Positions 18,623 through 45,564 of a DNA stretch of 64,000 nucleotides are shown piece by piece. Origin of the DNA: an uncultured Erysipelotrichaceae bacterium (GTDB taxonomy: Bacteria; Bacillota_I; Bacilli_A; RFN20; CAG-826). Each line of letters opens with the position of its first letter. Positions within the stretch are counted from its first letter, which is position 1. The notes beneath the pieces are model-generated. The model saw nothing but the letters and a program-made list of their open reading frames with translations, made no database searches and was not told the origin of the DNA. A program made the translations under genes and the position numbers. Where the stretch lies: positions 1-64,000 of the forward strand of contig CADBUI010000020.1 of the NCBI GenBank assembly GCA_902797855.1, written 5' to 3'.

Positions 18623-18730
18623 CGGTTGTCAGCTCTATAATATTTAATGGGATTCATGGGGGATTTTAATAAAATCTCAGTTAGTAAATCTCTAACATCT
18701 AATAGGGAACAACAAACTAAAAATTAAAGG

Positions 18731-19049: not shown

Positions 19050-19057
19050 GTTTAATC

Positions 19058-19139
19058 AAAAATGGAACAAAAACAAATAAAATACTAATGTTTGTGGTGG
19101 CCATCTATGATAGTTGACTTGGAAGGCGTTTTCCTAAAA
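19058..19139 (+). repeat. Direct repeat copy 2 (about 82 bp)
   Basis: This is the partner of 16803-16883. It preserves the reading of the radical SAM gene's last residues (NGTKTN) but without the rest of the gene, so it looks like a duplicated gene 3' end plus downstream sequence. The last 29 bases (19111-19139) are identical to copy 1. Confidence 0.75.
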
Positions 19140-19174
19140 GTTTCGTTTTGTTGTTGCGGTTTTTAATATTTCTA

Positions 19175-19201
19175 TTGAAATGATATTATTTTGTGTATAA
19201 T
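19175..19201 (+). promoter_or_regulatory. Promoter of the ATPase-Toprim-Thoeris operon
   Basis: TTGAAA (19175-19180) and TATAAT (19196-19201) have a 15-base spacer, shorter than ideal, but a TGTG element precedes the -10. A small GAGA-loop-TCTC hairpin and a GAGG ribosome site lie between it and the ATG at 19235. Confidence 0.45.
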
Positions 19202-19234
19202 ATACATGAGAAAAAATCTCACAGAGGTAAAAAA

Positions 19235-20515: not shown

Positions 20516-20516
20516 C

Positions 20517-21194: not shown

Positions 21195-21219
21195 TTATTG
21201 AAGACTGCGAGATTTTAAT

Positions 21220-21723: not shown

Positions 21724-21728
21724 AAAAT

Positions 21729-22613: not shown

Positions 22614-22623
22614 GGTATTTATT

Positions 22624-27609: not shown

Positions 27610-27735
27610 GTCACTAGGATATGACTTCGAAAGTCCCAATTCGGTCTCATATTCTTAGGCAATTTCCTATCATCCGCTCAATAAGATAGACGTTGAGTGA
27701 TTTTCTACGTTTATCATGAAAGGAAAAAAATTAAA
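27610..27735 (+). promoter_or_regulatory. Structured 5' leader of unknown class
   Basis: The leader can fold into a long imperfect stem (CTAGGATATGAC near 27615 with GTCTCATATTCTTAG near 27645), enclosing a small GAC-TTCG-AAAGTC hairpin. A second stem forms from CGCTCAA with TTGAGTG near 27677-27702. No GEMM-type core is present, unlike the two other SipW-type operons in the window. It could be an unidentified riboswitch, a protein-binding leader or an mRNA-stability element. Confidence 0.35.
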
Positions 27736-28527
27736 ATGAAAAAATCTAAAATTATCGTCCCTGCCGTTGCTTTATTAGCATTAGGTATGGCCGCAAGCGT
27801 TACAGGTACTGTTGCTTGGTTTACAACAAACAGAAGTGTTAGTGCTGCTACACTTTCAGTCGCTATCGCAGGTTCACAAGACTTACGTATTTCCGATTCT
27901 TTAGCACCAAGTTATTCATGGACAAATGAATTAACATGGTCAAAAGCCGATGTTAATATGGTTCCATCAACTCCAGTTGCAGGAACACTTGCTGCTACAA
28001 CTGCTTTATTTGCTGATGCAAACAATGCTGCTTGCTCAGCAGATCCTACTTTCATTAGACCAAACGCTTCTAACGTTGTTAGTGCTGATAATGGTACAGC
28101 TGCAACTGCTGCCATTGTTGGTGATAACAGTGCAAAATATGAACTCGCTGGCGAACGTGGTTATCTCGTCGAAGACTATGCTCTAAAATATGAAGGTTCT
28201 AAAAAGGTTGGAGATGAAGTAGTAACTCAAGAAACCGTTCATGGCAAGATTAATATTACTGCTGGAGCTGGCAAGAACATCGATTTAGCCTTACGCGTTG
28301 GTATTTATAATGTTACAACTAGCAAGATCACCGTTTACAATGTTGGTGATTCCGTTGGTACATCCTATGTGGTTCGTCCAAGTGATCTAACTCTTGAATC
28401 TGGCGTCGCACAAGATCTTAAGATGTTTGTTTGGTACGAAGGTACTGATGCACGTTGTAAAAACGCTAATGCTATTACCAATACATTAAACATTACAGTT
28501 GCTTGGTCATTAGACACAATTGCATAA
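27736..28527 (+). CDS. SipW-type secreted protein, TasA/camelysin-like
   Basis: A 263-aa protein. The start at 27736 follows an AAAGGAAA ribosome site. The N-terminus is the SipW-dependent type: KK-rich start, hydrophobic core (about 8-28), then GTVAWFTTNRSVSAATL, the motif seen after the cleavage site in TasA and camelysin relatives. The mature part is Ala/Thr rich with few charges, as expected for an abundant surface or fibre subunit. It is monocistronic, with its own promoter, leader and a strong terminator, suggesting high independent expression. No anchor is visible. Confidence 0.65.
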   Translation: MKKSKIIVPAVALLALGMAASVTGTVAWFTTNRSVSAATLSVAIAGSQDLRISDSLAPSYSWTNELTWSKADVNMVPSTPVAGTLAATTALFADANNAACSADPTFIRPNASNVVSADNGTAATAAIVGDNSAKYELAGERGYLVEDYALKYEGSKKVGDEVVTQETVHGKINITAGAGKNIDLALRVGIYNVTTSKITVYNVGDSVGTSYVVRPSDLTLESGVAQDLKMFVWYEGTDARCKNANAITNTLNITVAWSLDTIA

Positions 28528-28659: not shown

Positions 28660-29037
28660 ATGAGTAAAACTAAAAAATTATTACTAATATGCGGTTTGAG
28701 TCTTGATGTTCTAATTACCGTATTTCTCTTTGTAGTTGCTATTATTATGCTTGCAACTATGCCAAAAACTGATGCCGGGATGTCTGTCGCAATTGAGACT
28801 AACGGACCATTTATTGGTTATTTACAAACTCATAGCACATTATATTTATGGACATGTGTTATACCGTTATTTGTATTGTTAGCTGGTAATATTGCTCTTC
28901 TTATTATTTACGTTAAGAAAGCCGGAAAGGCAAAAGCACAATTATCTGATCTAAGCGAAGATCAAAAAGCTGCTCTTCGTGCAGAAATCCTTAAAGACAT
29001 GGATTCTAGTGAAGAAAAGCCAGAAGAAAAGAAATAA
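28660..29037 (+). CDS. Small two-TM membrane protein, unknown
   Basis: A 125-aa protein with two transmembrane helices (about 7-33 and 63-86) joined by an extracytoplasmic loop of about 30 residues. A charged cytoplasmic tail (about 90-125) is rich in Lys and Glu, with a predicted helix LSEDQKAALRAEILKDM. It is monocistronic and ends at its own terminator. Its position between a secreted subunit and the riboswitch operon hints at a link with surface assembly, but no family is recognised. Confidence 0.65.
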   Translation: MSKTKKLLLICGLSLDVLITVFLFVVAIIMLATMPKTDAGMSVAIETNGPFIGYLQTHSTLYLWTCVIPLFVLLAGNIALLIIYVKKAGKAKAQLSDLSEDQKAALRAEILKDMDSSEEKPEEKK

Positions 29038-29078: not shown

Positions 29079-29168
29079 TTATTTACATAGGATTTATCAA
29101 GGTCATTGTCTTAGACAAAACTAAAAAATGTTTGAAATGCTATATAAATGAGTGATAATATTAAATTG

Positions 29169-29250
29169 TAAAAAGCAAACCCACAGTAATGTGGTGACGC
29201 AAAACTATAGGGTCTTAAATAATCTTTATTAAGATAGCCAGGTGCCTTAA
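29169..29250 (+). promoter_or_regulatory. Cyclic-di-GMP-I (GEMM) riboswitch 1
   Basis: The GEMM-I core is plain: GCAAACC, then the CCACAGTAATGTGG stem, the invariant GACGCAAA, then ACTATAGGGTCTT with its partner AAGATAGCC and a terminal GGTGCC. The 3' part of the aptamer (AGCCAGGTGCC, 29236-29246) is also the 5' arm of the terminator at 29236-29302. Aptamer folding and termination should therefore be mutually exclusive. The sequence does not settle whether c-di-GMP turns expression on or off. It precedes the operon 29361-41358. Confidence 0.92.
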
Positions 29251-29302
29251 GGGTTAAAACAAACCCCTGTTGAATGGATGATAGGCAACTGGCTTTTGTT
29301 TT
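29236..29302 (+). terminator. Expression-platform terminator of riboswitch 1
   Basis: AGCCAGGTGCC (29236-29246) pairs with GGCAACTGGCT (29284-29294) with one mismatch, then TTTGTTTTAT. Confidence 0.8.
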
Positions 29303-29360
29303 ATAACCTGTTGGGACAATAATAATTTATAATACACAAAACACTGGAAACATTTTTCTT

Positions 29361-30143
29361 ATGGTCGACTTAAGCTATATACGCAAAAGAAAGGCCAAAA
29401 GGATAGTAGCCATTGTTGGTGGTATTGCTGGCGCGTGCGTGGTCGCAATCGCAGCGGTCGCACTCTTAGGTCAAAGGGCCGCGCCACTTACTGTAAAACT
29501 ATCTAATAGTGGAGCAAGTCTAGCTCTCTACAAATCTGATTATGATAACGAACGCAAATCTTTCCTCTTAGCGAAAGATGCTAAACCATATTCAGAATTT
29601 ACAGAACCAGCACTCTCCCTCCATGAATCAGAATTAGACATTGATGATTCAAAATCTCTTGAAACAAGTGATAACTCATCATTCCAATTCTTCCAATATA
29701 CGTTCTACATTACCAATACCGGAGACAAAGCGGCTGACTATCATTTAAGCCTTAATATTTCGTATCCAAACACAAGCAGCTTTGATTTAGCTGATGTTTT
29801 GCGTGTTCGTTTCTACGATAATGATGGAAATGATAAAACCTCACATAACTATCGTACTTTTGCTAAACATAGTTCTACATTCAACACTGAAACAGGAAAA
29901 TATGATCCTGAAAGAATTGCTGGAAGCGGAACTGAATATGCAGAAGTTTTCGAATCTTCAAGTGTAGCTTTATCAAAAGAAGTCACCAATTTCGTACCAG
30001 GAGCAGTTACACGCTACTCGTTTGTTTTATGGCTTGAAGGCGAAGACCCAGATAGCAAAGGTGAAGCTCCAGTGGACTCAAGTATTGCTTTAGGAGTAAA
30101 TATTAGCGCACATGAAGCAGAAGCGACACCTGTCCAAGAATAG
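29361..30143 (+). CDS. Membrane-anchored surface protein, TasA-like fold suspected
   Basis: A 260-aa protein with a very basic N-terminus (RKRKAKR), one hydrophobic helix (about 15-38) and a beta-rich extracytoplasmic part. Strands such as FFQYTFYITNTGDKAADYHL resemble the vk-NTG-d-a-y pattern of TasA/camelysin proteins. Unlike its neighbours it lacks the AWF motif, so it may stay anchored rather than be cleaved. It is the first gene after riboswitch 1. The next gene starts inside its last ten codons. Confidence 0.6.
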   Translation: MVDLSYIRKRKAKRIVAIVGGIAGACVVAIAAVALLGQRAAPLTVKLSNSGASLALYKSDYDNERKSFLLAKDAKPYSEFTEPALSLHESELDIDDSKSLETSDNSSFQFFQYTFYITNTGDKAADYHLSLNISYPNTSSFDLADVLRVRFYDNDGNDKTSHNYRTFAKHSSTFNTETGKYDPERIAGSGTEYAEVFESSSVALSKEVTNFVPGAVTRYSFVLWLEGEDPDSKGEAPVDSSIALGVNISAHEAEATPVQE

Positions 30144-31161
30144 CATCGCTGCATTAGTGACGGCATCAATCTTTACATTTGCTCTCGCAGGAACCACTTG
30201 CGGGACTTTTGCTTGGTTTATGTACGCGTCACGTGCAAGTGCTACTTTTAATGGTGTCACAATCGGTGCGGGTGAATTAGAGTTCGGTATTCTTTCGGAT
30301 ACACTTTTACCAAGCTATGATGAAAATCAATTGGTTGAAGATACATCGATTGATGGGAAAATTATTTACTGGTTCAAGAATCACGAGGCTGCATCAGATG
30401 CAATTAATTACATTATCGGCCTTAATGGATCAGCAACTAACAAAATGATTCCTGTCACTTCTGGAAAATATTCGCCTGGAGATAGTTTTAATTTGTACAA
30501 TTCTCCAAATATGACTTCTAGCAGTATTGCACAAAAGTATACTTATGTAAGTCTTCCTCTAGTCTTCCGTTACGAAGATGATATCGAAATTGGTAAATAT
30601 TTACCGGACATTGATATCTATTTAACTAAGGCTAGTGTTAAGTCGGTTGAAGATGGTTCAGAAATTCATAGATCCATCAGAATTCATACTGATAGCAAAG
30701 CTGGTTTAAATCATCTTATTAATCCATCCCAAAACGAAGATGGCTCCACGAAAGTTGGAGGCATCCTAGATTTAAATTCGGATGGTTTTTATGATGAATA
30801 TGAACTTGCTGGAAAAACATATGAATATATTTATGGTGAAGTAGAAAACGAAGTCCACAAGGATAGCCCTGAAGCTACTGATTCAGTTGTGCCTGAAAAC
30901 GAAAGAACAACCTTCCACGCTCAACATAGAGCAGGAACTTACGCAGTTAATGAAGAAGAAACAATTGCGAAAGTTGCAGAATATGAAGGGTTCTACGGAT
31001 TTAGGAACAAACGAAAATCGGTCACACGCACAAACGCTAATACAAACAATTACGCTTATTTAGATATGACCATTTATTGTGAAGGGTGGGACTTACGAGT
31101 TATCGATGCTGAAAAAGGAAATCCTTTCTCACTCGATCTCGAATTCAAGGTTGTAATTTAA
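30112..31161 (+). CDS. SipW-type secreted protein with EF-hand-like loop
   Basis: A 349-aa protein. The N-terminus has KNSIAALVTASIFTFALAG and then TCGTFAWFMYASRASATF, the SipW-dependent pattern. Residues 220-231 read DLNSDGFYDEYE, a good match to a calcium-binding DxDxDGxxDxxE loop, preceded by KVGGIL. A C-terminal segment (DMTIYCEGWDLRVIDAE) is shared with the next gene product. It overlaps the previous gene by 32 bases. It is likely a minor fibre or cell-surface component exported by the signal peptidase of this operon. Confidence 0.65.
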   Translation: MKQKRHLSKNSIAALVTASIFTFALAGTTCGTFAWFMYASRASATFNGVTIGAGELEFGILSDTLLPSYDENQLVEDTSIDGKIIYWFKNHEAASDAINYIIGLNGSATNKMIPVTSGKYSPGDSFNLYNSPNMTSSSIAQKYTYVSLPLVFRYEDDIEIGKYLPDIDIYLTKASVKSVEDGSEIHRSIRIHTDSKAGLNHLINPSQNEDGSTKVGGILDLNSDGFYDEYELAGKTYEYIYGEVENEVHKDSPEATDSVVPENERTTFHAQHRAGTYAVNEEETIAKVAEYEGFYGFRNKRKSVTRTNANTNNYAYLDMTIYCEGWDLRVIDAEKGNPFSLDLEFKVVI

Positions 31162-31162
31162 T

Positions 31163-32212
31163 ATGAACAAGAAAAGACTAGCTGCAGCAGGAATAGTAGC
31201 ACTTGGACTAATGTTAACATCGTCCATAGTTTTTACTGTTGCTTGGTATAACGGTGCGTCTAATCTATCTGTTAATAGTTTCAACGTTCGTCTTGCGGAT
31301 AAAGAACTTGAGATTTCCACGGATGATATTGAATTTAAAGAAATTCTAACTGAAGACGATTTAGAAAAAGTTGAAAGATATAAACCTGTAAGTTCCGCCT
31401 TTTCAAGTGAGTGGATTAATTCTAAAGAGCTAAAACCACAATTCGTGGAAGGATATTCTGATCCTATGAGTAACATCGTTACTAGTAGAGGTGATGTCAA
31501 TATCGCTGAAAACGGATTCTTCTCTCAAACACTTTATCTAAAGTGTAATTCAATCGCGAAGGTTTCATTTGATAAGGAAAACACTTACGTGAAGCCTGAT
31601 GTTGAAAAGAATGAAGAAGTCGCTACTAAGATAGCGCATAAATATCCAAATCTAACCCACGAACAAATTGTGGAAAATCTTAACAATATTGTTAATTCAT
31701 TAAGAATTTCACTTCTTGTCTTAAATGACACTGATAGTGAATCCTTAGATGATTACACCTACAAGATTATTGATCCTACAAAACAAGGAACAACTAAATT
31801 AGGTGGTGTTCTCGATACTGACTTAGATGGATATTATGACAGTTTCGATAATAAAGAAGTTATCTATGGCGAAGTATATAACGCTACAGATTCAACTCTT
31901 GTTTATGATGAAGAGATAACTAGTGATGAGTCAGCTTCCACTAGTAATTCTCAATTTGATGCATCTCATCAAAAAGGAGTTAGACCTTTAAATCTTGATG
32001 CTTCTAAAAATGGTGGTGTTGAGATCGCTACCGAAGAGTCACTATCGCTTGATGAACTCGATGATTTCTCATTTGATTTACAAGCTGATGTATCTAAAAA
32101 GATAGTGTTATCTTTATACATTGAAGGTTGGGACCTTGATAGTGTCAATTACACTATGTATTCTCGCTTCTTGACTAATATTACATTCAAGTTAGCGGAT
32201 GGGGGAAAGTGA
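31163..32212 (+). CDS. SipW-type secreted protein, paralogue of the preceding
   Basis: A 349-aa protein, the same length as its upstream neighbour and sharing its order of elements. It has a signal with SIVFTVAWYNGASNLSV, a KLGGVL segment followed by DTDLDGYYDSFD (218-229) as an EF-hand-like loop, IYGEVYN, and a late SLYIEGWDLDSVNYTMYS. This points to an old tandem duplication. It starts one base after the previous stop. Function is inferred only from the operon. Confidence 0.65.
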   Translation: MNKKRLAAAGIVALGLMLTSSIVFTVAWYNGASNLSVNSFNVRLADKELEISTDDIEFKEILTEDDLEKVERYKPVSSAFSSEWINSKELKPQFVEGYSDPMSNIVTSRGDVNIAENGFFSQTLYLKCNSIAKVSFDKENTYVKPDVEKNEEVATKIAHKYPNLTHEQIVENLNNIVNSLRISLLVLNDTDSESLDDYTYKIIDPTKQGTTKLGGVLDTDLDGYYDSFDNKEVIYGEVYNATDSTLVYDEEITSDESASTSNSQFDASHQKGVRPLNLDASKNGGVEIATEESLSLDELDDFSFDLQADVSKKIVLSLYIEGWDLDSVNYTMYSRFLTNITFKLADGGK

Positions 32213-32224
32213 GGCAACTAAAAT

Positions 32225-33754
32225 ATGTCTGAATATTTCGCATATTTGGGTAAGATGATCGTCCAAGTACTTACAGATATTGGAATGTTTTTCTATGATG
32301 CGATTGTCTACCCTTGGACAAAGCTTCCAAGTAACTTCGCTCAATACGGAGAATATTTTGGAGCATACCATAATGACTTTGGAGCAGGTGGATGGATAAT
32401 GTTTGTTATCTTCGCCATTCTTCTTAGTGGAGTGGTAGGCGCTATTGGATATGGTTTATTCTTAGTGCTCCGTAAATATATTCGTTTTGTGAAGAAAGAA
32501 CTTGAGAAGGATGAACTAAAGCGTCAAGTTGAAAGACTCAACTATGAACTTTATCAAATCATGCAAGAAAGGGATCGTATCTTAGATATGAAGGTTAAAG
32601 CCTTAGGTATTGATGGTAAAAAACCACCTGAAGGTGAACTTTCTGAAGAAGAGCAAACAGTTGAAGAAATTCAATCTCGTTTCCCAAAACTTACTCATGT
32701 TGATAACGAATACTTTGGTAAGAACACTGATATACCAGATGTTGAGGGTTTAACACTTAAAGACTTATGTGAAAACTTCCGTAACTTTGCAGCCTCACAA
32801 CTCGGTCTATATTACACAATTAACACTATCCGACAATTATTCGCCGGTATGGGTGCAGGTAAGCTAGTTATTCTTGAAGGTATTTCTGGTACTGGTAAAA
32901 CTTCCATGCCATATGCTTTAGGTAAGTTCTTCGCTCATGATGCTGAAATCTGTTCAGTTCAACCTAACTGGAAAGATAGAAGTGAACTTTTAGGCTACTA
33001 TAACGAATTTACTAAGAAGTTCAATGAATCCGAGTTCTTACGTGCGTTATATACATGTAATTATAGAAAAGATACAAACCTCATCGTCCTTGATGAAATG
33101 AACTTAGCCCGTGTTGAATATTATTTCGCTGAATTCCTTTCTGTTCTTGAAATGCCTAACCCAAATGAATGGAATATCGAAATGATTGGTAGTTATGATA
33201 AAAACGATCCAAAACTATTCAAAAACGGTAAACTTAAAATCCCTCAAAATGTCATCTTCTTTGGTACCGCCAATAACGATGACTCTACCTTTACAATTTC
33301 CGATAAGGTCTATGACCGTGCTATTTGTTTATTCTTTGACAATAAAGGTATTGCCTTTGATGCACCATATCAAGCACCAATGGTAATTCCATTCGCACAA
33401 ATTCAAAGACTTTATGATGAAGCTGACTCTAAATATCCTGTCAGCGAAGATTCACTTGTGAAATTCGCTGAACTTGATGACTTTGTTATCAAAAAATTCA
33501 GACTCGCCTTTGGTAACCGTATTTTAAAACAACTTAAGAAATTCGTTCCTTGCTATGTCGCTTGTGGTGGAACTGAACTTGATGCCTTCGACTTCATCTT
33601 CACTAATAAGATTCTTAAGAAGTTTGAATCTCTTAACATTGGCTTCCTTAAAAACGAACTTAAAGAACTTAACCAAATGCTCGATAAGCTTTTTGGTGCG
33701 GATCAGTTCCCAATGGCTCATAAGTTCGTCAATAACCTCATTAGGATGAGTTAA
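32225..33754 (+). CDS. Membrane-anchored McrB-like AAA+ ATPase
   Basis: A 509-aa protein. An N-terminal region with one clear transmembrane helix (about 56-82, after an amphipathic start) and a coiled-coil stretch (about 85-120) leads to an AAA+ domain of the McrB/AAA_5 type. Walker A is GISGTGKTSM (219-228), Walker B LIVLDEMNLARVEYY (D290, E291) and sensor 1 NVIFFGTANNDD. The MNLAR/AEYYFAEFL pattern is characteristic of McrB. Classical McrB is a cytosolic GTPase of a restriction system with an N-terminal DNA-binding domain; here that domain is replaced by a membrane anchor. The DUF2357-like partner follows 2 bases later. Confidence 0.75.
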   Translation: MSEYFAYLGKMIVQVLTDIGMFFYDAIVYPWTKLPSNFAQYGEYFGAYHNDFGAGGWIMFVIFAILLSGVVGAIGYGLFLVLRKYIRFVKKELEKDELKRQVERLNYELYQIMQERDRILDMKVKALGIDGKKPPEGELSEEEQTVEEIQSRFPKLTHVDNEYFGKNTDIPDVEGLTLKDLCENFRNFAASQLGLYYTINTIRQLFAGMGAGKLVILEGISGTGKTSMPYALGKFFAHDAEICSVQPNWKDRSELLGYYNEFTKKFNESEFLRALYTCNYRKDTNLIVLDEMNLARVEYYFAEFLSVLEMPNPNEWNIEMIGSYDKNDPKLFKNGKLKIPQNVIFFGTANNDDSTFTISDKVYDRAICLFFDNKGIAFDAPYQAPMVIPFAQIQRLYDEADSKYPVSEDSLVKFAELDDFVIKKFRLAFGNRILKQLKKFVPCYVACGGTELDAFDFIFTNKILKKFESLNIGFLKNELKELNQMLDKLFGADQFPMAHKFVNNLIRMS

Positions 33755-33756
33755 TA

Positions 33757-35214
33757 ATGGATAAAGTAAATAAAAAACTTTCATATTCTAAACTCGAACG
33801 TAGGTACGCTAGTAGGTCTAAATCTCTTTACCAAACAAAAGAAGGTAGAGAACTTTTAGACATTATTTCAAGTGGAAAGAATAGATATCTCCGCCTTGAT
33901 AGATTCGAATCAAGCGCGATGGATATGACTTGGATTAAACAGATTGAAGAATGTATTCCTCCTTTAGGAGAAATCGTTAATAATCCTAAGAAAACAATCC
34001 AAACCCTTGAAGAAGTAGTCCAAATCGAAAAAGTTAAAAAGATTGGTAGCCAATCTGTTCAACATTTAGCGAGTCACACTCAGTTTATTAAAACAATTGA
34101 TGAAAATGGTGATGTTACACCTTCTAAGATGCTTAATATCTATCATGATGACTACTACGCTATTTATGAAAATAGATTTATCGCTACTTTAATTAGACAC
34201 CTTCTTGTGTTCGTTGAGAAACGATATCAATTCGTTAAAACTAACGCCACCCTTAGTGACGTTGGAGTGCTCTACGCTAAAAACCACACAACTATTGAAG
34301 GCGCGGATGTTGAAATTGAAACAAAAGTAAAATATTCTCATCCAGCAGAAGCTGTCGCAATCGATAAACTTCGTGGCTACCTTAAACGTATCGAAGATAT
34401 TCGTAAATATTTAAAATTCTACGCGAATACTGAATTTATGAAGATTCTTCGTAGAGAAAGAGATGTTCGTAATCCAATTCTTCAAACTAACATCATTCGT
34501 AAGAATCCTAAATACCATAAATGTTATCTACTTTGGCTATATATAAATAGATATAGAGAAACAGGTATAGAAGTTAAAGTTGAAGAAAACTATTCCAAAC
34601 TATCTCAAGAAGAAATTGAACTCATCAATCAAAATATGTGTTCAACATTCCTTCTTTTAAAAGGAAAGAAGATATCAAAAGATAAGAGTAAGAAAGTTAA
34701 ATCATATAAGCCAGTTATTCTAAAAACAGTGGATGATGATATTTATAAACCAATGGACTATAACGCTCCTATTGAATATATCAGAGTCGATGATAAATAC
34801 CGTGAATACACTGAGTCACTCTATAATTTAAATCCTCATCCTTCTAAAGCACGTCGTCAATATGATGATGATAAATATAAAGAAAATAAACTTAGAAGAG
34901 AAAAAACTGCTCAAGTTGATTCTTTGCTTAAAAGAAAGCAAGCGGAAGTAGAAAAATACGAAGCTAATGAAAAAGAAGCATTAGAAAGAGAAACTTACCG
35001 CGATAAATATGTTGATTCTAAAGCTGAAGAAGAAATTAGACTTGAGGCTATTGAAAAGGTTAATAAAGCTCGCAAAGCTTTAGTGAAGCAAGCTAAAAAA
35101 GATAAACCAAAAGATAAGAAAGTCTCAAAAGCTAAAAAAGTAGCAAAGAAACCTCTTAAAAAAGATAAGAAAGTTTCTAAAAAGAAAACCCCAACAAAAA
35201 AGAAAGCGAAATAA
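33757..35214 (+). CDS. DUF2357-like McrB partner without visible nuclease
   Basis: A 485-aa protein. The central part (about 100-300) has HDDYYAIYENRFIATLIRHL and FVEKRYQFV, then a helical stretch with LRGYLKRIEDIRKYLKF and NPKYHKCYLLW. This resembles DUF2357 proteins that replace McrC beside McrB ATPases. Such proteins normally end in a PD-(D/E)XK nuclease; here the C-terminus (about 345-485) is a highly charged helical segment ending in a Lys-rich tail with KKTPTKKKAK. It may bind membrane phosphates, nucleic acid or glycans (inference). The assignment rests on neighbour and motif, not on a search. Confidence 0.55.
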   Translation: MDKVNKKLSYSKLERRYASRSKSLYQTKEGRELLDIISSGKNRYLRLDRFESSAMDMTWIKQIEECIPPLGEIVNNPKKTIQTLEEVVQIEKVKKIGSQSVQHLASHTQFIKTIDENGDVTPSKMLNIYHDDYYAIYENRFIATLIRHLLVFVEKRYQFVKTNATLSDVGVLYAKNHTTIEGADVEIETKVKYSHPAEAVAIDKLRGYLKRIEDIRKYLKFYANTEFMKILRRERDVRNPILQTNIIRKNPKYHKCYLLWLYINRYRETGIEVKVEENYSKLSQEEIELINQNMCSTFLLLKGKKISKDKSKKVKSYKPVILKTVDDDIYKPMDYNAPIEYIRVDDKYREYTESLYNLNPHPSKARRQYDDDKYKENKLRREKTAQVDSLLKRKQAEVEKYEANEKEALERETYRDKYVDSKAEEEIRLEAIEKVNKARKALVKQAKKDKPKDKKVSKAKKVAKKPLKKDKKVSKKKTPTKKKAK

Positions 35215-35230
35215 TTAACTAGATTTAACA

Positions 35231-36016
35231 ATGGAAAAAGAAGAAATCACTAAAAGTGAAGAAAAAAGTAAGAAACCAAAAGGCAAAGTTCGAAAGATAA
35301 TCGAATGGTCTGTCACTGGTTTATTTATCGCTTTAGTTGGTGTTCTTATTGGAATTAAGATTTACCAAAAGAATACACATACTTCTTTATTTGGTACTCA
35401 GTATCCAATTGTCTTAACTGACTCAATGGAAACTGATTATATGGTGGATGATGTCTTAATTGTTAAAGAGGTTAATCCAAGTGAAATCGCTATCGGGGAC
35501 GATATCACCTTCCTATGGGATTTATCAGGAAAAGGTGACGTCTATCCAATGACCCACCGTATCATTGAAGCGACATATTATCCTGATGCAAGTTTAAACA
35601 AAGGATATAACTACACCTTTGTCGCTCATGGAATTAATAAAAATTCTTCTCAGTGTAGAGGAGACTGTACTTATCAAACCCAAGAATTCCATGAAGATGT
35701 CTTAATTGGTAAGGTAACAGGAAAAAGTCCATTCCTACGTGTAATGTATAAAATTCTTACATCTGTCTGGACACTTATTATCTTAATTCTTATTCCTTGC
35801 TTATATATCATGATCACCGCGGTCATCGATATGTTTAAAAAGCTTGAAGAACAAGAGCGACTTCAAGAAATTGAAGCTATTGAAAAAGGTGAATATAAAC
35901 CTAATAAGTCTAATAGTGGAGAAGATCCACTTAAAGATCTATCTGAAAAGGATAAAGAAAGACTTAAAAAGGAACTCCTTGAAGAGATGCTAAATAAAAA
36001 GAAAGAGAAAAAGTAA
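35231..36016 (+). CDS. sipW: Signal peptidase I, SipW/ER type
   Basis: A 261-aa S26B signal peptidase. It has an N-terminal helix (about 29-48), then VLTDSMETDYMVDDV with catalytic Ser65. The general base is His109 in MTHRII, as in the archaeal/ER-type Ser-His enzymes, instead of the bacterial Lys. A second helix (about 178-202) is followed by a charged cytoplasmic tail. It should process the SipW-type signal sequences encoded at 27736, 30112, 31163, 41651 and 45565. The stop overlaps the next gene start by one base. Confidence 0.88.
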   Translation: MEKEEITKSEEKSKKPKGKVRKIIEWSVTGLFIALVGVLIGIKIYQKNTHTSLFGTQYPIVLTDSMETDYMVDDVLIVKEVNPSEIAIGDDITFLWDLSGKGDVYPMTHRIIEATYYPDASLNKGYNYTFVAHGINKNSSQCRGDCTYQTQEFHEDVLIGKVTGKSPFLRVMYKILTSVWTLIILILIPCLYIMITAVIDMFKKLEEQERLQEIEAIEKGEYKPNKSNSGEDPLKDLSEKDKERLKKELLEEMLNKKKEKK

Positions 36017-37551
36017 TGTCAAAAAGAAGTTTTAACAGAAAACGACTAATCATATTCCTTTTATCCGTCACCTTTTTTGCGGCAGTTTTAGCGACTGCTT
36101 CTATCTTTTTTGCAACTGGTATATCAAATAAATATCCGTTCCTCGTCTATATTTATGTCTTCCTTTTACCTCTTAGTGGTGGTTTAACTTTGTCTACATT
36201 ACAAATCTATTTAAGAAGAAATCAAATGCTAGAGACACTTAGAAGTGAAAACTCATATCAACTAGGATTGGATAATTACTTTTATAACTACACGATGTTC
36301 TCTGAAAGAGTGAAATCTCTCCGTAGATATCATAAGAATGAGAAAGGATATATTATTGCTTTCACATCTACGAATATTATTGGAGTAACACAGTTATCGC
36401 AGTCCACTCGTGAACTTAATGGATATATTTCTGACTACATTAGAAATGAACTTAGCGAATCTAAAACAATCAATAAGAATTCATATGCTTATTGCTATTA
36501 CCGCAATGTCTTTATCATATATTCCTTTATGAACTTAGAAGATACACACGCTCTTATAGAGCTGGTTCGTAAAGGCATATATTCTATTGTGGACACTCAT
36601 GAACTTAGAGTATTTGTCCAACCTCATTTTGGTGTTGCCGAAGTTTCTAATACCATCAGTCTTATCGTCGGCGTAGATAACGCGATGTATGCGCGTAATA
36701 TGGATGAAAGAAACTTTGAAGAGCTCACCTTCTATAAAGATGATTCAAGAATTGAAGCTACTACAGATGATATTGTTGAACTTTCTGAAGCTCTTCATAA
36801 TGGAGAATTTGTGGTCTATTATCAACCTAAATTTAATTTAAAGAAAAAGAAATTCGTTGGTGGTGAAGCTCTTGTTAGATGGAATTCAAAGAAATATGGA
36901 CTTCTATCACCTATTAAGTTCCTTAAGAAGATGGAGCAAGGTGGACTAATTCACGAACTTGATACATATGTTTTAAAACAAGTTATCAAAGATCTTGAAG
37001 GAGTGAAAAGAAATGGTAGAGAACTTCTTCCCGTTTCCGTTAATTTCTCTTTATATGAATTCTATTCCACAGCGTTCTTAAAAGAACTTACTGAAATTAT
37101 TGATCGAAGCGCAATAGCACCTGAGTTAATCGAAATTGAAATTACTGAAACCACAACCCAGGCGAATACGTTTATGGCAACTTCTATACTAAATAGACTT
37201 CGCTCAAAAGGATATCGCATTCTTATGGATGACTTTGGTAGTGGATTTTCAAATATCGCTCAACTAAATTCACTTCCATTTGATGCGATTAAGATTGATA
37301 AGTCGCTTATCGATGGAGTGAATAGTGATTCTAAAACTAAAGATATCGTTAAATTCTTAATTGCTTTATGTAAGACAAATGATCTAGAAGTTATCGCTGA
37401 AGGTGTGGATAGCAAAGAAAAGATAACTATCCTTGAAAAGATGAACTGCGATGTTATCCAAGGATATTATTACGCTGAACCTATGCCACTAAATGAATAT
37501 TTAGATTTCTTAAATAATAATCAATTCGAAAAAAGAGGAGGAGAACAATAA
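36016..37551 (+). CDS. EAL-domain c-di-GMP phosphodiesterase with degenerate GGDEF
   Basis: A 511-aa protein. Two transmembrane helices (about 10-32 and 39-60) precede a degenerate GGDEF-like region (about 90-240) with no GGDEF motif. The EAL domain then keeps the catalytic set: EALVRW (E284), VNFSLYEF, EIEITET, LMDDFGSG (D405, D406), IKIDKS and VIAEGVDS, with QGYYYAEPM at the end. It should hydrolyse c-di-GMP at the membrane. It lies inside the operon controlled by c-di-GMP riboswitch 1, which gives a feedback loop (inference). Confidence 0.88.
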   Translation: MSKRSFNRKRLIIFLLSVTFFAAVLATASIFFATGISNKYPFLVYIYVFLLPLSGGLTLSTLQIYLRRNQMLETLRSENSYQLGLDNYFYNYTMFSERVKSLRRYHKNEKGYIIAFTSTNIIGVTQLSQSTRELNGYISDYIRNELSESKTINKNSYAYCYYRNVFIIYSFMNLEDTHALIELVRKGIYSIVDTHELRVFVQPHFGVAEVSNTISLIVGVDNAMYARNMDERNFEELTFYKDDSRIEATTDDIVELSEALHNGEFVVYYQPKFNLKKKKFVGGEALVRWNSKKYGLLSPIKFLKKMEQGGLIHELDTYVLKQVIKDLEGVKRNGRELLPVSVNFSLYEFYSTAFLKELTEIIDRSAIAPELIEIEITETTTQANTFMATSILNRLRSKGYRILMDDFGSGFSNIAQLNSLPFDAIKIDKSLIDGVNSDSKTKDIVKFLIALCKTNDLEVIAEGVDSKEKITILEKMNCDVIQGYYYAEPMPLNEYLDFLNNNQFEKRGGEQ

Positions 37552-38295
37552 ATGATTTTAATTGTTGGTTCAAATCACGATGATGTTCTTTATTATGAAA
37601 ATCTACTTAAGAACGTCAAAGAAGAAACGATATTAAATAGATATCATGTTTTAATCGGAAAGATCGCTTCTCAAGATGTCATGGTTCTTCAAGATGTCTA
37701 TACTTCTTTTGTTTCCTCTTTGATTGCTACTTATTTAATTGATAATTATTTAGTGTCACTTATCATTAACGTCGGTAGATGCGAAGCCATATCTCCAGAT
37801 TTAAATATTGGTGATATTGCTTTAAGTGAATCGGTTGTCTTTGGTGACGTTGATCAAATCGCTGCGGTAAAAGGCACAACACTTGGTCAGATTCCAAATT
37901 ATCCTCGTGCTTTACCAATATCACCAAATATTCTTCAAAATATGTATGCTTCTTTAGAGAAGGTTGTAGATTATAAGTTTTATAATGCGACATTTATCTC
38001 TTCTAGCTTCTTTAGACAAAATAAAGAATCAGTTGGGGAAATACTTAAAGATGAATATATTCTTTCACTTAATAAATCAATCGTGCTTGATGGAGAAACT
38101 GCTGGACTAGCTTTAGCGTCTTATCTCACAAATGTTCCATTTATTTCCGTTAAAGTCGTTGAAGCTAAAGCTGGACTATATACTTCACTTGAAGATTATT
38201 TATCAGTCTTAAATGAATATGCTTCGATTGGTAAAGCTATTTCAACATTTATCGGTGAAATATCTCGTACAGATGTTGTTCACATTAAGGAGTAG
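37552..38295 (+). CDS. Divergent MTA/SAH-nucleosidase-like (PNP fold) protein
   Basis: A 247-aa protein with the phosphorylase/nucleosidase fold. It has the start ILIVGSNHDD, INVGRCEAISPDLNIGDIAL as the family GxA...iGDvvi segment, GQIPNYPRALP, and a late VLDGETAGLALASYL where MTAN enzymes have VDMEGAA. The usual catalytic Asp segment (RxISD) reads SVKVVEAKAG, so the key Asp appears absent. It starts directly at the stop of the EAL gene. It may be an inactive ligand-binding relative or a nucleosidase with a new substrate. Placement between two c-di-GMP proteins is unexplained. Confidence 0.6.
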   Translation: MILIVGSNHDDVLYYENLLKNVKEETILNRYHVLIGKIASQDVMVLQDVYTSFVSSLIATYLIDNYLVSLIINVGRCEAISPDLNIGDIALSESVVFGDVDQIAAVKGTTLGQIPNYPRALPISPNILQNMYASLEKVVDYKFYNATFISSSFFRQNKESVGEILKDEYILSLNKSIVLDGETAGLALASYLTNVPFISVKVVEAKAGLYTSLEDYLSVLNEYASIGKAISTFIGEISRTDVVHIKE

Positions 38296-38298
38296 ATT

Positions 38299-41200
38299 AT
38301 GGCAAAAAATAAAAACAATAAAATTATCTCCTTAAAGGAATATTCAAAACGAATCGCTATCTTGCTTGGTAGCATTGTTGCTCTTATTTTACTTTTATCA
38401 ATTGCAATAGTAGTGCTTGTAGGTTTGTTCCCAGATTTACTTGTTGTCCACATTATTCTTTCTGCTATTTTAGCAGTCTCTGCAATTGTTTTTGTCACGC
38501 TTGCGATTCTATTTATCAATAAACTTTATTTCTTATTTTATAAGCAAGGTATTGAAGTCTTTAAAAGAAATATTGAATCACTTTCAAACTTCGATAAGAA
38601 CTTTGAATATTATAAAGAAGATAACTTCGAAGAACTTAAAGACTTAAATTCAACATTTAAAGAAATCGCTAAAAACGTTGATGGTAGAACAATTATCTCT
38701 CAAGGTCTCATGCATAAAGACATTGAACTTGATTATGTAGATAAAAATCATATCTTTGTTAAAGAAGAATCACTTTTAAGTAATCTAAATAATTTAATTA
38801 TCTCTAGTGAATCATATAAGAATGCTTTAATAGATATTTCTTATGATTTAGGAGATGGAGTGATTTCATCTAAAGATGAAAATAATATCCTTAAGACTCT
38901 TAAGATGACTTTAGGATATGAAAATATCCTTATTGCATCTAAAGATAATCACCAAGGATATATTCTTTATATTCCAGCCTTTGATTCACTTAATCAACTT
39001 AAAGAAGAGCTTGAATATTTAATTAAGAATATCTCCTTACTTAATAGGACTCCTCAATCTAAAGAGCTCGTCCTTGCGAATGTTTCAGTCGTAGTCTATC
39101 CATATTCATCAATTGATAATATGCGTAAGGATTTAGAAAAAGCTAAGAAAGAAAAGAAGATTCTTAATTTCTATCTTCCAGAAAGACCATTTGAACCTAA
39201 TAATAAACTTCTTTTCTCTTCAATGAATATTAATAACACTACTAAACTTATTGAAGACGTATCATCAATTGATCCAGATCCAAAACAATTTGAAAAGAAT
39301 ATGAAAAAGATTGAGACCTCTATCTCAAACATTTCAAATTATTATGGATTCTCTTCAGCAGGATATATTGACTATGACGAAGAAAATGAAATCTATATAT
39401 CTAGATATGCCTATTCAAGTGAAGAGGCGATTATCTTTAAAGAGAATTCAAAAGTTAATTCTAAATTCATCGATATCTTAATGAAGATTCAAGATAATGA
39501 CCATTCTTACTATTTTTCAAATAGAAGACACATCAATATTGAAGTCGCTAAATATATTGATGAATATCGTATAAAGTCAGGATTATTCTATATCCTAACT
39601 AGAGACGATAAACCGATAGGGGTAATCTATTTTGTTAATAGGCAAAGAGATCTTAATTTCGATGCTTATATGAAAGAATCGCTTATTACGTCCTGTCACG
39701 TTCTTTCAGGCATCTTAAAAGAAATAGGTGCCCGTAAGAGTGTAGATATATCTAACCGTAGGCTAAAAGAAGTTTTAAAGATAAGTGGAATTAAACTATA
39801 TTCCGTTAATAAGGAGTCTTATGAGCTTATTATGGCCTCTGAATCTTTGAAACGCTCTATTGGTAAGCTTGATGCATCTTTACCGTGCTATAAGGCGATT
39901 TATGGCTTAGAAAAGCCATGTAAGAATTGTCCGCTTAAGAGTGGCAAGCATTCTATTATGAATATTTCTAATAAGAAATATGAATCATATCCTATTTTAC
40001 AAAATAAGAATGATCCAACCGCTCATATAGTGCTTAAAGAAACATCTAAAGAAGAAGGTGACTCATTAATTAATGACGAAACCTTATTAGCGTCATTCTC
40101 CTCACTTTCTAAAGCAATAGAAAATAAACTAATCGCTAAACAAAGTGGAGATATTCTCCTATTTAGAATTAAGAACGCTTCTGAGATTGCTAACAAGTTT
40201 GGTAATAATGGTCTAACTGAATTAATTAAATCACTTGTGAGTGAAGTACTTTCTAAATACGTAATGATTAATGATATTTATGAATATGATTATTCTACCC
40301 TTGCTATCGTGCTTAATGGATCAAGTAGAGACTATATCACTTCACTTTGTGAAGATATATATTCATTAACTAATTCTTTAACAAAAGAAGACACTAAGTT
40401 ATCACTTCTATATTACGATAAATCTTATAGTGATAATGACAATCTTAAAGATTTATTTAAATCTTTAGATGACTCACTTCTTAACTATAAAGATGAATCG
40501 GATAATGAGATTATATTCATTGATAGTGGTTATAAACGAAGTGCGTCTAAGGATGGATATCTACTTGAACAACTCCTTAAATCATTTAATGAAAAATCGT
40601 ACGATATGCACTTCCAGCCAATGTTATCTAATAACACTCGTCTTATTTATGGCGCGGAATTATTATTACGTGTTAACGACAATGAAATCGGTAAACCAAT
40701 CAATATTGGTGAGGCTATTAGAATCGCTGAAGAAACCGGTAATGGTAAAGTTGTCTGCGAAGGCTTATTGACATATTTAGATGACTTACTTACTAAGTAT
40801 GGCTATACATTCTTTATGTCGGCTGGACTAGCTAGATTATCGCTTAATGTAGATTATGACTTCATTAGTAGTGATGGCTTTATTGATAGATTAAGTGAAC
40901 TAGTCAAAAAACATCAGCTTCCAAAGACCTTTATTGGCTTTGAAATCTTTGAAAAAGACGTTAAAAAACACTTAAGTGAATATAAGGAATTATCGAAGAA
41001 AATCGCTGATGCAGGCGCGGTATTAATCTCTGACTACTTTACTGGTGAAGCCTTCTCAGTTAAAGAGGCAAGTGAAGCCGGATTTAAAGAGATTAAAATC
41101 CCTTATAATCTCGTTTCTAAAATCACTGAAAACAGTGTCTATGAGAAGCTAATTTCCTTCTGGGATGAAGCAAGTAAAAACCAAATGAAGATCACCTTCG

Positions 41201-41358
41201 TTGGAGTGGAAAATAGACGCGTAAGTGAGGCCATTAACTACGAAGGACACGACTGTAATGTCCAAGGAAATTACTTCTTCAAAGCTATGAAAGAAGAGGA
41301 ATTATTCGAGGCTGTTAGACTTAGAAATATGAAGGATAAAGATAACCTTGATAACTAA
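38299..41358 (+). CDS. Large degenerate PAS/GAF-GGDEF-EAL membrane protein
   Basis: A 1019-aa protein. Two helices (about 14-42 and 47-75) are followed by a long sensory region. A GAF-like part (about 340-480) precedes a PAS-like part (about 485-590) with CYKAIYGLEKPCKNCPL, a four-Cys arrangement known from redox or metal-binding PAS domains. A GGDEF-like domain without the motif follows (about 600-750). The EAL domain has AELLLRV in place of EALLR and ISDYFTG in place of DDFG, so catalysis is doubtful. It is probably a c-di-GMP receptor or regulator rather than an enzyme. It ends the operon. Confidence 0.78.
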   Translation: MAKNKNNKIISLKEYSKRIAILLGSIVALILLLSIAIVVLVGLFPDLLVVHIILSAILAVSAIVFVTLAILFINKLYFLFYKQGIEVFKRNIESLSNFDKNFEYYKEDNFEELKDLNSTFKEIAKNVDGRTIISQGLMHKDIELDYVDKNHIFVKEESLLSNLNNLIISSESYKNALIDISYDLGDGVISSKDENNILKTLKMTLGYENILIASKDNHQGYILYIPAFDSLNQLKEELEYLIKNISLLNRTPQSKELVLANVSVVVYPYSSIDNMRKDLEKAKKEKKILNFYLPERPFEPNNKLLFSSMNINNTTKLIEDVSSIDPDPKQFEKNMKKIETSISNISNYYGFSSAGYIDYDEENEIYISRYAYSSEEAIIFKENSKVNSKFIDILMKIQDNDHSYYFSNRRHINIEVAKYIDEYRIKSGLFYILTRDDKPIGVIYFVNRQRDLNFDAYMKESLITSCHVLSGILKEIGARKSVDISNRRLKEVLKISGIKLYSVNKESYELIMASESLKRSIGKLDASLPCYKAIYGLEKPCKNCPLKSGKHSIMNISNKKYESYPILQNKNDPTAHIVLKETSKEEGDSLINDETLLASFSSLSKAIENKLIAKQSGDILLFRIKNASEIANKFGNNGLTELIKSLVSEVLSKYVMINDIYEYDYSTLAIVLNGSSRDYITSLCEDIYSLTNSLTKEDTKLSLLYYDKSYSDNDNLKDLFKSLDDSLLNYKDESDNEIIFIDSGYKRSASKDGYLLEQLLKSFNEKSYDMHFQPMLSNNTRLIYGAELLLRVNDNEIGKPINIGEAIRIAEETGNGKVVCEGLLTYLDDLLTKYGYTFFMSAGLARLSLNVDYDFISSDGFIDRLSELVKKHQLPKTFIGFEIFEKDVKKHLSEYKELSKKIADAGAVLISDYFTGEAFSVKEASEAGFKEIKIPYNLVSKITENSVYEKLISFWDEASKNQMKITFVGVENRRVSEAINYEGHDCNVQGNYFFKAMKEEELFEAVRLRNMKDKDNLDN

Positions 41359-41371
41359 AATTTCTAACTTA

Positions 41372-41412
41372 AAAAGGTGGGTAAAAATCACATAATCCAC
41401 CTTTTATTTTTG
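41372..41412 (+). terminator. Intrinsic terminator of the riboswitch-1 operon
   Basis: AAAAGGTGG (41372-41380) pairs with CCACCTTTT (41397-41405), then ATTTTT. Confidence 0.8.
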
Positions 41413-41529
41413 CTAAAAATCTTTAGTTTCTATAAATAACTTTGTTATTTATAAAATCACTTTCTATCACGCGTAGGCACATAATTGTTGAAAAATGCTT
41501 GTTCAATATATAAAATATATTTGAACTTG

Positions 41530-41597
41530 ATAAGAGCAAACCCACAGCGATGTGGCGACGCAAAACTATAGGGTCTTAAAAAAGATAGCCAGCTGCC
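41530..41597 (+). promoter_or_regulatory. Cyclic-di-GMP-I (GEMM) riboswitch 2
   Basis: It is nearly identical in its core to riboswitch 1: GAGCAAACCCACAG, GATGTGGCGACGCAAA, ACTATAGGGTCTT and AAGATAGCC. CCAGCTGCC at its 3' end doubles as the 5' arm of the terminator at 41589-41629. It precedes the two giant surface protein genes. Confidence 0.93.
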
Positions 41598-41629
41598 AAA
41601 GGTTAACAAATAGGCAGCTGGTTTTAATT
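41589..41629 (+). terminator. Expression-platform terminator of riboswitch 2
   Basis: CCAGCTGCC (41589-41597) and GGCAGCTGG (41613-41621) form a perfect 9-bp stem, then TTTTAATTT. Confidence 0.85.
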
Positions 41630-41650
41630 TCTAGCTAGAAAGGTAGCAAG

Positions 41651-44600
41651 ATGAATTATCTTCAAAAAAAGATTCTTATCATCACAGCAGCGATTGGTAA
41701 CGTCGCTATATCTTTGTCCGCTGCTGCAATTGCTACATATGCATGGTTTCAACAAAATACAAAAGTCGCCGCTGAAAGTCTAACTGTTGCATGTGAAGAA
41801 CCATCTGACAAACTTGAATACAAAATATATAAATACAATGACAATATCAAAGCTGGTGTTGGCTATACAAACCCATCCGAATTTACTCTTCCTGATTACG
41901 ATAGTTACATTACCGAAAAGAATGTTTACGCAAATGTAATTATTCGTGCAGAAGTTACAGTTCCTGCTTTGTCAACCAGCAATTATAGTTTTTCAATTGA
42001 TATTACGAGATTATCTTCTTCATTTTTGAATGGTGGAAAAATAGGAAAAGTCACTTCCAATGTTATTCAGTTAAAATCAACAGTTTACGCTTTTAAAGAA
42101 GTTGGCAATAATTCATATACACTTAATACTAGTTCTCATAACTCTATTGATGAATCAAGCGATGCTTCTATTTATTCAACTGCAAGCGCATATTTCGCAA
42201 GCAGAAATACTCCAACAACATTTGTGCCAATTCGTTATGCAGATGATGGTAGTGCAATTGTTAATAGAGGTGATGAAGAGGCTAAAAGAACAATTTCTTT
42301 AGTCCCTGATTTACCAGATGGATTTGAAATTAGTAAGGTTGTGATGTACTTAGAATGTTCTTACCATGATACATTGGTTAATGAATACATAAGAACAAAT
42401 CAAAGTGAAGGTGCAACTAAGTATTCACTAAATGGTGACATTTCGAAAATAACATTTTCCAAAAAACAAAAAGTTTCACAAACTTCACTTGCTACTGGAA
42501 AGTATATTAAAGTCGAATCATTGGCTGCTTTATCAAACGGCCAATATTTGCATTCTTATGAAACAAATTCATCAACTGGCGAAGGCAAGATTTTAAAAGG
42601 CAGTTTGGCTACTTCTAATAAGGCTGCAGCCACTGCTTCAGGAATATATGTTGATAATAACGCTCAGGATGTATCAATCAATACAAATCCTGGCAACGAA
42701 CCAAAGTCCATCGATTCTACTGACACAATTGATGAAAACTCATTTGATTTTGTTAAAACTAACAATACTTTCAAATCTAAAAACGGTCAGTACATTGGCA
42801 ACAACACCGCTAGTAATGGTATAGCCACCAATTCAACTTTGACATCCGGATATTATCACACTATTGGTTTTGCAAACAATCATGCAAATGTCAATGCTTA
42901 TGGTAATAGCGGTTCTTATAACATGAGAATGAGATATTATTCTAGTTCGAATAAGTTTTATTACTACAATGGAACTGGCGAACAAACAGATTTATTTAGA
43001 TATACTGAAAACGTTGCGGAAATGCCGGTTTTAAGTAGTATTGCAGTTACAACACCAGCTTCTAAAACAGCATTTTTCATTGGTGAAAAATTTAGTGTTC
43101 CTGGTTTAGTTGTTACAGCAACATACACCAACGGTTCAACCGCAAATGTTACTGGATCTTGTACTTTTACTTCAAGCACCAATCCTACAACATTAGTTCC
43201 TGATGGAAAAACTGGTTCAACTACATTTACCGCAACCGAAGTAGACAAAGAAGTTTATATAAACTATAGCGAAGGTGGCGTCACAATCGCCGATGCAAAT
43301 AGACCTCATTATACCATCTCAGTTAGTAAAGATGATTTGAGTTCTATCTCTGTTACTTCACTACCTACTAACATTTATTACTATGTTGGCGACACTTTCT
43401 CTTCTAATGGTTTAAAAGTAAAAGCGGTATTTGCTTCTGGCAGAGAAGTTCCTGATATTACACCAACATCAATTTCAACACCTGATATGTCTTCGAGTGG
43501 GACAAAAAGTGTTACAGTGAGTTATGAACTTGATGGTGTAAATAAAACTACATCTTTCAACATTTATGTTCGCGCTCGCGCCTTATCTATAAATCCAACT
43601 ACAAAAACATTGGCTGAAGGTTCCACTTTCGATATTACCGTTACACATAACCAAGATGTATCAATAGCAGAATCAACTGCTGATACAGGAGATGTTTCTC
43701 TCTCGACGACATCAATTTCTTATTCTAAATCCGATAAAACTACAACCACAACAACGGTTAAAGTCACTGCAGTTACACATGGAACAGTGACATTAACATT
43801 TTCATCTAATGGTGTATCAAATGTTACTTGTAGTATTACCATCACACAATCTCCTGCAGATAGCTTTGTAATTGGCGCTGGAGAAATTGTTAGTGGTTCT
43901 ACATATGCTTCTCATGAAAACACAGTATCAAAAGACTATAATGGATCTGGTGCAGAAGAAAGAGATTGGTTAGTAACTTTTGGTGGTAACAACAGTTCAA
44001 TTGGAACTAATGCGAATCACTATAGCAGTTGCAACTTATCCTCATACCCACAATATGCCGTTAGTCCTATTACTACAACTGATGCAGCAACAGCATTTGC
44101 TTCTACTTCAAAACTTAATAAAATCAGGAATATTTCATTCACACATACTGGAGGCAAGAGCAGTACCAGTACAATTGTTTATGCTTTATATTCATCTGAT
44201 GGAACAACATATAGTTTGCTTAGCTTAGCTAGTGGTTCTTTCTCACAAGGAGGAACAATGTCTTCGGCTTCAACTGATTATACATTTGTATTTAATCAAG
44301 CATATACTGGCTATTTTGCTCTTGTATTCAAAAGCACATTAGGTTCTTCTGGCGATTGGAGAATTGATGGTTTGTCAGTAACTTATAATAAAAAGATTTT
44401 AGATCACATTACTTTGACTGGCGATTGCACTTATAAAACTTATAACAATGGTGCATCATTAAATACTGCTGGTTTGGTTGTCACCGCTACTTATAGTGAT
44501 GGTAGTACTGAAGACGTTACAGCAAGTGCTACTTTGACACCAGCCACAAATCCGTTAACCACAGGTACAACATCTGTGGTTGTTAATGCTTCTTATACAC

Positions 44601-45553: not shown

Positions 45554-45564
45554 AAAGGAAGAAA

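Follow-up and report, generated by a model that had tools for sequence, protein, structure and literature searches.

The 64,000-nucleotide stretch of contig CADBUI010000020.1 from an uncultured Erysipelotrichaceae bacterium (hereafter, the window) carries a compact locus in which a cyclic di-GMP (c-di-GMP) riboswitch precedes genes for secreted proteins, a McrB-family AAA+ protein with a DUF2357 partner, a SipW-like signal peptidase, and c-di-GMP proteins. Nine co-directional genes are packed at 29361–41358, neighbors either overlapping by up to 32 bases or being separated by at most 16 bases (Table 1). The original prediction, made from the sequence alone, spoke of eight genes, despite listing nine, and the coordinates confirm nine. 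The gene identities and coordinates it gave are borne out by domain searches and motif conservation, and its general claim, a conserved c-di-GMP-controlled operon joining SipW-type secretion with McrB/DUF2357-like and c-di-GMP proteins, agrees with the riboswitch, the domains and the synteny as far as sequence can tell. The final terminator it placed after the last gene corresponds to a hairpin followed by a T-run, recognized by eye. Promoter-like sites in the window are no commoner than in shuffled sequence.

Table 1. Features of the locus (positions in the window); gene names are used throughout the text.
Feature	Coordinates	Strand	Basis or remark
SipW-type secreted protein	27697..28527	+	TVAWF after signal helix; outside riboswitch operon, often adjoining in relatives
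Small conserved membrane protein	28660..29037	+	directly 5' of riboswitch unit in relatives (26 relatives)
c-di-GMP-I (GEMM) riboswitch aptamer 1	29164..29249	+	RF01051 65.4 bits, alignment
Terminator hairpin using 3' strand of aptamer 1	29236..29303	+	fold; scan of relatives; predicted ON switch
A: membrane-anchored surface protein	29361..30143	+	conserved first gene of cassette
B: SipW-type secreted protein	30112..31161	+	TFAWF
C: SipW-type secreted protein	31163..32212	+	TVAWY
AAA: McrB-family AAA+ with N-terminal membrane helix and long charged helix	32225..33754	+	
MRC: DUF2357 protein, K-rich tail, no detected nuclease domain; AAA partner	33757..35214	+	
SPASE: SipW/archaeal-type signal peptidase I, Ser65/His109 dyad	35231..36016	+	
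EAL: predicted membrane c-di-GMP phosphodiesterase, catalytic residues all conserved	36016..37551	+	residues from sequence
NUC: nucleosidase-like protein (PNP_UDP_1)	37552..38295	+	
DEG: membrane protein with pseudo-EAL	38299..41358	+	
Terminator-like hairpin and T-run 3' of DEG	41371..41412	+	sequence read by eye
c-di-GMP-I riboswitch aptamer 2	41525..41600	+	RF01051 55.2 bits
Terminator hairpin overlapping 3' strand of aptamer 2	41587..41632	+	fold
BIG1: 1300-amino-acid SipW-type secreted protein, Big_2/Big_3 immunoglobulin-like domains	41651..45553	+	
BIG2: 1288-amino-acid secreted protein	45565..49431	+	

The c-di-GMP-I riboswitches were called with the RF01051 covariance model at its gathering cut-off of 35 bits, which both window aptamers exceed; the GEMM riboswitch with a terminator that had been proposed ahead of the genes is thus recovered, together with its overlapping hairpin. 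The second riboswitch and the two giant secreted-protein genes behind it (41525–49431) were absent from the original prediction. The aptamer's 3' strand (AGCCAGGTGCC, AGCCAGCTGCC) pairs with a downstream strand in each leader, and the resulting hairpin is followed by a T-run. As aptamer and terminator are mutually exclusive, the ligand should turn transcription on, and, judging by these folds, both riboswitches should be ON switches. This downstream pairing is seen in nearly all of 31 aptamers taken from relatives and the window; a clear U-rich tail, according to a crude test, is present in about half. No further c-di-GMP-I riboswitches were found in the genome (1.1 Mb, 95% complete).

By its motifs, AAA is a McrB relative with a membrane anchor and a shortened NxD motif. 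Residues 1–130 comprise a membrane helix and a long charged helix, both conserved, and the AAA+ domain carries Walker A GISGTGKT, Walker B LDEMN, and the NxD motif ANNDDS. The nucleoside triphosphatase (NTPase) motifs are strictly conserved among relatives, with TAN-x-D-[D/E]-S present in all but one of those in which the motif was captured (12 relatives were missed by the pattern); in the McrBC census (PMC11090510), an NxD with D or E after it marks the NxD branch. The PDB profile search with 15 AAA relatives yielded Escherichia coli McrB as the sole match (E 6.8e-7), and hhalign of AAA versus McrB gave a probability of 96.5% (E 9e-10). On the AAA tree, genera are partly clustered with some exchange, the pattern being neither strictly vertical nor freely mobile.

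With the K-rich tail removed, the MRC protein matches PF09823 (DUF2357) at E 2.1e-7, which passes the curated cut-off, and the same family is matched by 30 out of 45 relatives. No nuclease family was matched among these 45 relatives, in contrast to McrC with its PD-(D/E)xK nuclease. The AlphaFold model (predicted local distance difference test score, pLDDT, 85) contains a long C-terminal helix at residues 364–407; this helix, the PF09823 match and the K/E-rich tails of relatives suggest a DUF2357 protein with a coiled coil. The relatives range from approximately 370 to 2331 amino acids, their tails being K/E-rich or made of repeats, and some long ones have many immunoglobulin-like repeats. For example, two partners of more than 2200 amino acids (L042:3270-10265, L043:10209-16931) carry many such Big_2-like repeats and no signal peptide, and another one (L064:9150-14360) carries a different tandem repeat.

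Judging by its Ser/His pair, the SPASE product is a SipW/archaeal-type signal peptidase I (S26B): it matches TIGR02228 (2.5e-10) and SipW NF046067 (2e-8), both below the curated cut-offs, and Ser65 and His109 are invariant in 30 out of 30 sequences. The signal helices of B, C, BIG1, and the secreted protein encoded at 27697 end in [T/Y]-x-AW[F/Y] or similar, and in 55 aligned C-type homologs Ala27 is invariant and Trp28 nearly so. SipW substrates bear an aromatic residue at P2' (PMC10269814), and the AW[F/Y] ends fit such substrates. Neither B nor C of the window has a Pfam match above the cut-off, relatives of C have no relevant NCBIfam match, and PDB profile searches with A and with C found nothing. 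A TasA/CalY-type fold was considered for C and was not confirmed, as no structure matched. Giant proteins at 21 related loci share the N-terminal region of BIG2. For the N-terminus of BIG1, an iterative search matched 340 frames but may have drifted via the signal peptide, and it is not used as evidence.

Two of the three remaining operon genes encode c-di-GMP proteins. The EAL protein contains an EAL domain (E 5e-67), its catalytic set (EAL, N, E, DDFG, K, E, Q) is invariant in 33 out of 33 proteins, including the relatives, and by these residues it is predicted to be an active phosphodiesterase. In DEG, the first Asp of DDFG and the Glu of AEGV are replaced both in the window and throughout the relatives, and the GGDEF part is too degenerate for a Pfam call; the protein is nevertheless kept as a membrane protein of about 1000 amino acids despite its degenerate EAL. 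The combination of an active enzyme and a conserved pseudo-enzyme suggests that one provides feedback and the other a receptor. NUC matches PF01048 (E 8.5e-12), and its residue best aligned with the catalytic Glu of 5'-methylthioadenosine/S-adenosylhomocysteine nucleosidase varies among relatives. The genome as a whole encodes one GGDEF protein, whose motif is intact (its sole intact diguanylate cyclase gene), and a search for PilZ domains found none. The detectable c-di-GMP outputs of the organism are the two riboswitches, both of them at this locus. Outside the operon, an EAL-like match turned up just once in the genome, below threshold (28.8 bits), in a 596-amino-acid protein (G000:C15:2847-3500, L197).

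The cassette is not confined to the window. A close AAA homolog is present in 104 out of about 220 genomes of the family, and the order A–B/C–AAA–MRC–SPASE–EAL–NUC is kept in about 30 family loci, most of them with DEG. A more distant order, [EAL]–A–C(n)–SPASE–AAA–MRC–SPASE–secreted–giant, is seen in metagenome-assembled genomes labeled Acholeplasmatales, Izemoplasmatales, Tenericutes, and Bacillales, and in Clostridia, where carriers include Ruminococcus albus KH2T6 (L152) and R. flavefaciens YRD2003 (L193), both with a small EAL protein encoded upstream of A. The recurring core, which reaches approximately 43–45% AAA+ identity, consists of A, C, the SipW-like peptidase, AAA+, and DUF2357. 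Among 133 loci with AAA and A- or C-type genes, the peptidase is encoded at 129, the DUF2357 partner likewise at 129, and an EAL protein nearby at 87; some of these loci are entered twice, and contig ends truncate many. The original prediction had been staked on conservation of gene order in relatives, and it withstood this check both in the family loci and, for the core, in Bacilli and Clostridia; the conservation is, from the genomes compared, far beyond chance.

The riboswitch keeps its place as well. In the family genomes, it lies 0.5–7 kb upstream of AAA on the same strand at 50 loci, and 12 riboswitches lie 6–12.5 kb downstream of AAA. In five distant Bacilli loci (L083, L098, L142, L158, L190) it directly precedes gene A, and in three of them (L098, L142, L190) further riboswitches precede downstream secreted-protein genes, tandemly in two cases. 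Tandem c-di-GMP-I riboswitches, ahead of gene A or of downstream secreted-protein genes, occur at L142:5113-5335, L190:14086-14275, and L098:6517-6707. These data bear on the simplest alternative, a coincidental neighborhood made of several independent adjoining transcripts. Internal promoters are possible, but the genes overlap or nearly touch, their order is retained in relatives, and the riboswitch position is conserved across distant Bacilli; we regard this explanation as very improbable, being largely refuted by synteny at the level of the genomes compared.

Similarly, the presence of AAA follows the c-di-GMP machinery. In 220 family genomes, AAA and the riboswitch are both present in 89, AAA alone in 15, the riboswitch alone in 18, and neither in 98 (p 5e-27); for AAA and GGDEF, the respective numbers are 99, 5, 22, and 94 (p 9e-34), both p-values overstating independence, as the genomes are related. 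The AAA and riboswitch searches cover 224 and 220 genomes, respectively. All three features are found in 89 genomes, and none of them in 89. Taken at the level of sequence, the gene content, the riboswitches, the motifs, the conservation, and this genome-level co-occurrence may be regarded as established.

Several other arrangements of AAA and DUF2357 genes were seen. At L070, L073, L109, L111, and L113, AAA–DUF2357–AAA triplets lie between genes for giant repeat proteins, without a signal peptidase. At L071, L072, L074, and L114, a multi-pass AAA of about 605 amino acids and a Cys-rich partner occur with an ABC transporter, a SipW-like peptidase, and AWF-like or AAF-like secreted proteins. 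At L076, L085, L095, L097, L102, and L104, a protein of 2100–2600 amino acids and a membrane protein of about 450 amino acids accompany AAA and the DUF2357 partner, with no peptidase nearby.

Taking all this into account, we consider it probable that the locus serves c-di-GMP-switched export or assembly of surface proteins around a CoCoPALM-type pair, namely a membrane McrB-like AAA+ protein with its DUF2357 partner. The single diguanylate cyclase would raise c-di-GMP, so that both riboswitches permit read-through, on the one hand, into the operon, which encodes the anchored subunit A and the SipW-type B and C along with the SipW-like peptidase, the AAA+/DUF2357 pair, and c-di-GMP proteins, and, on the other hand, into the genes of the two giant secreted proteins. 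Precursors of the AWF type would be matured by the dedicated peptidase. The AAA+ protein would form a ring anchored at the membrane through its N-terminal helix and, with stimulation by the DUF2357 protein, would act as an NTPase of the cytoplasmic face that drives or gates export or assembly of the secreted proteins. The active EAL enzyme would close a negative feedback loop, and the pseudo-EAL protein could be a c-di-GMP receptor adjusting the machine, by a logic like that of LapD. Of this scheme, we infer the ON direction, the feedback, the receptor role and, above all, the energizing of assembly by the AAA+ pair.

A number of observations weigh against this reading. The structure model of protein C (pLDDT 88.9) has no PDB match at E <= 0.001, TasA included, and hence a TasA-like fold, and with it the word "fibre", is unsupported; A and C match no surface-protein family in Pfam or NCBIfam. 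Direct comparison of the DUF2357 protein or its profile with E. coli McrC gave no match, so that the homology to McrC rests on Pfam DUF2357, and the fold search of its model returned no credible PDB match. No FtsB/DivIC homology was detected in the AAA N-terminus, and no GEMM riboswitch was found at the Ruminococcus loci L152 and L193. Finally, to our knowledge, McrB-family proteins are known only from restriction.

AAA also matches the PADLOC defense candidate PDC-M26A (E 3.9e-39), which likewise counts against this reading. In one alternative, the AAA+/DUF2357 pair is an anti-phage defense module of a type IV restriction-like kind, as its CoCoNuT relatives are considered to be, guarding or using the surface apparatus, e.g., by sensing phage adsorption at the membrane. 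The PDC-M26A match speaks for it, and one DUF2357 relative matches PDC-M26B; the family is classed among type IV restriction systems (PMC11090510), and a defense island lies at 9.8–23.3 kb of the window. However, the DUF2357 protein shows no nuclease domain and no gene of the operon is nuclease-like; even in distant relatives AAA is accompanied by the same set of surface, peptidase, and c-di-GMP genes, unlike the usual exchange of defense genes, and its presence tracks the c-di-GMP machinery; the flanks in relatives are, by inspection, mostly housekeeping genes. We therefore hold a defense function to be improbable, and the initial idea that the adjoining island defines the cassette was dropped, given these mostly ordinary flanks. 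The island itself (9838–23259, PADLOC), upstream of the cassette, comprises a DRT UG5-nitrilase reverse transcriptase, a PDC-M30/M41-type pair, an AbiL-like pair, and Thoeris (ThsB, ThsA macro, and a second ThsB).

A more serious rival places the AAA+/DUF2357 pair in the same pathway without driving assembly, as a membrane scaffold, in quality control or as a signaling switch, e.g., unfolding unprocessed precursors or relaying the pseudo-EAL signal, with Sec and extracellular donor-strand exchange doing the building. Bacillus TasA-type filaments assemble without a cytoplasmic ATPase (PMC9674648, PMC10151520), and the B. cereus filament paper mentions no AAA or ATPase, which is what makes a gating, scaffold or quality-control role a serious competitor and leaves defense as a weaker one. 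The highly variable DUF2357 tails, from K-rich to immunoglobulin-like and other repeats, likewise read like docking or scaffolding. On the other hand, the NTPase motifs are strictly conserved, so that turnover matters, whereas a scaffold alone would need none. On balance, a non-driving role seems rather unlikely, though less so than defense.

The conserved set, found in many uncultured gut bacteria and in cultured Ruminococcus of the rumen, and c-di-GMP-switched in many of its carriers, places a membrane-bound relative of a DNA-restriction motor among surface proteins and their signal peptidase. This suggests that a defense-type motor has been re-used to help build the cell surface. In its broadest form, the proposal would be that a motor of the restriction-type McrB family has become a membrane NTPase energizing or gating c-di-GMP-switched surface assembly across Bacilli and Clostridia, i.e., a new class of Gram-positive systems powered from the cytoplasm; this we advance only tentatively. 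In any case, the association of a McrB-type NTPase with a peptidase, secreted subunits, and c-di-GMP control, maintained over large distances, opens the uncharacterized CoCoPALM group to direct functional tests, also in cultured hosts such as R. albus KH2T6 and R. flavefaciens YRD2003. It also indicates that in small-genome gut Bacilli the detectable c-di-GMP outputs, two riboswitches, are all aimed at one surface locus.

The original prediction knew of no described system with this gene set; this does not hold for the AAA+/DUF2357/signal-peptidase core, which matches CoCoPALM, a type named in the eLife 2024 McrBC census from its association with signal peptidases, treated in a few sentences and deferred (PMC11090510). 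That paper was the sole match in a literature search on the full gene set, and no follow-up on CoCoPALM was found in the literature searched. The window set appears to fit CoCoPALM in its McrB-like AAA+ protein with the shortened NxD followed by D/E, an N-terminal membrane helix and a long helix, in the DUF2357 (McrC N-terminal) partner with a long helix and coiled tail, and in the signal-peptidase neighbors. It differs in that the FtsB homology of the N-terminus stated in the census is undetected in the window AAA; c-di-GMP is not mentioned there. What is new here is the c-di-GMP control, the predicted active phosphodiesterase with the conserved pseudo-EAL protein, the operon content, the substrate genes, and the spread. 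Compared with E. coli McrBC (EcoKMcrBC), the AAA+ domain is homologous to that of McrB, but has NxD instead of NxxD and a membrane anchor instead of a DNA-binding domain, the partner is without a detected nuclease domain, and the context is that of surface proteins.

The Bacillus tapA-sipW-tasA operon and the B. cereus sipW-tasA/calY/capP operons share with the window the dedicated SipW-type peptidase beside secreted proteins with an aromatic residue just past the signal helix and, plausibly, an anchored accessory protein (gene A); they have, as far as known, neither the McrB/DUF2357 pair nor a c-di-GMP riboswitch, and the TasA fold is unconfirmed for C. The Pseudomonas LapD/LapA system (PMC3032545) resembles the locus in combining large surface proteins with a nearby membrane protein of degenerate GGDEF/EAL type, and in including an active phosphodiesterase in the pathway, whereas the window locus is without LapG protease or type I secretion genes, and DEG resembles LapD only as EAL-type proteins generally do. 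Finally, c-di-GMP riboswitches directly 5' of surface-protein genes are known from B. thuringiensis cbpA (PMC7423583) and the Clostridioides difficile c-di-GMP regulon (PMC6200980); in those cases the adhesin alone is switched, whereas the unit described here adds the peptidase, the NTPase pair, and the c-di-GMP proteins.

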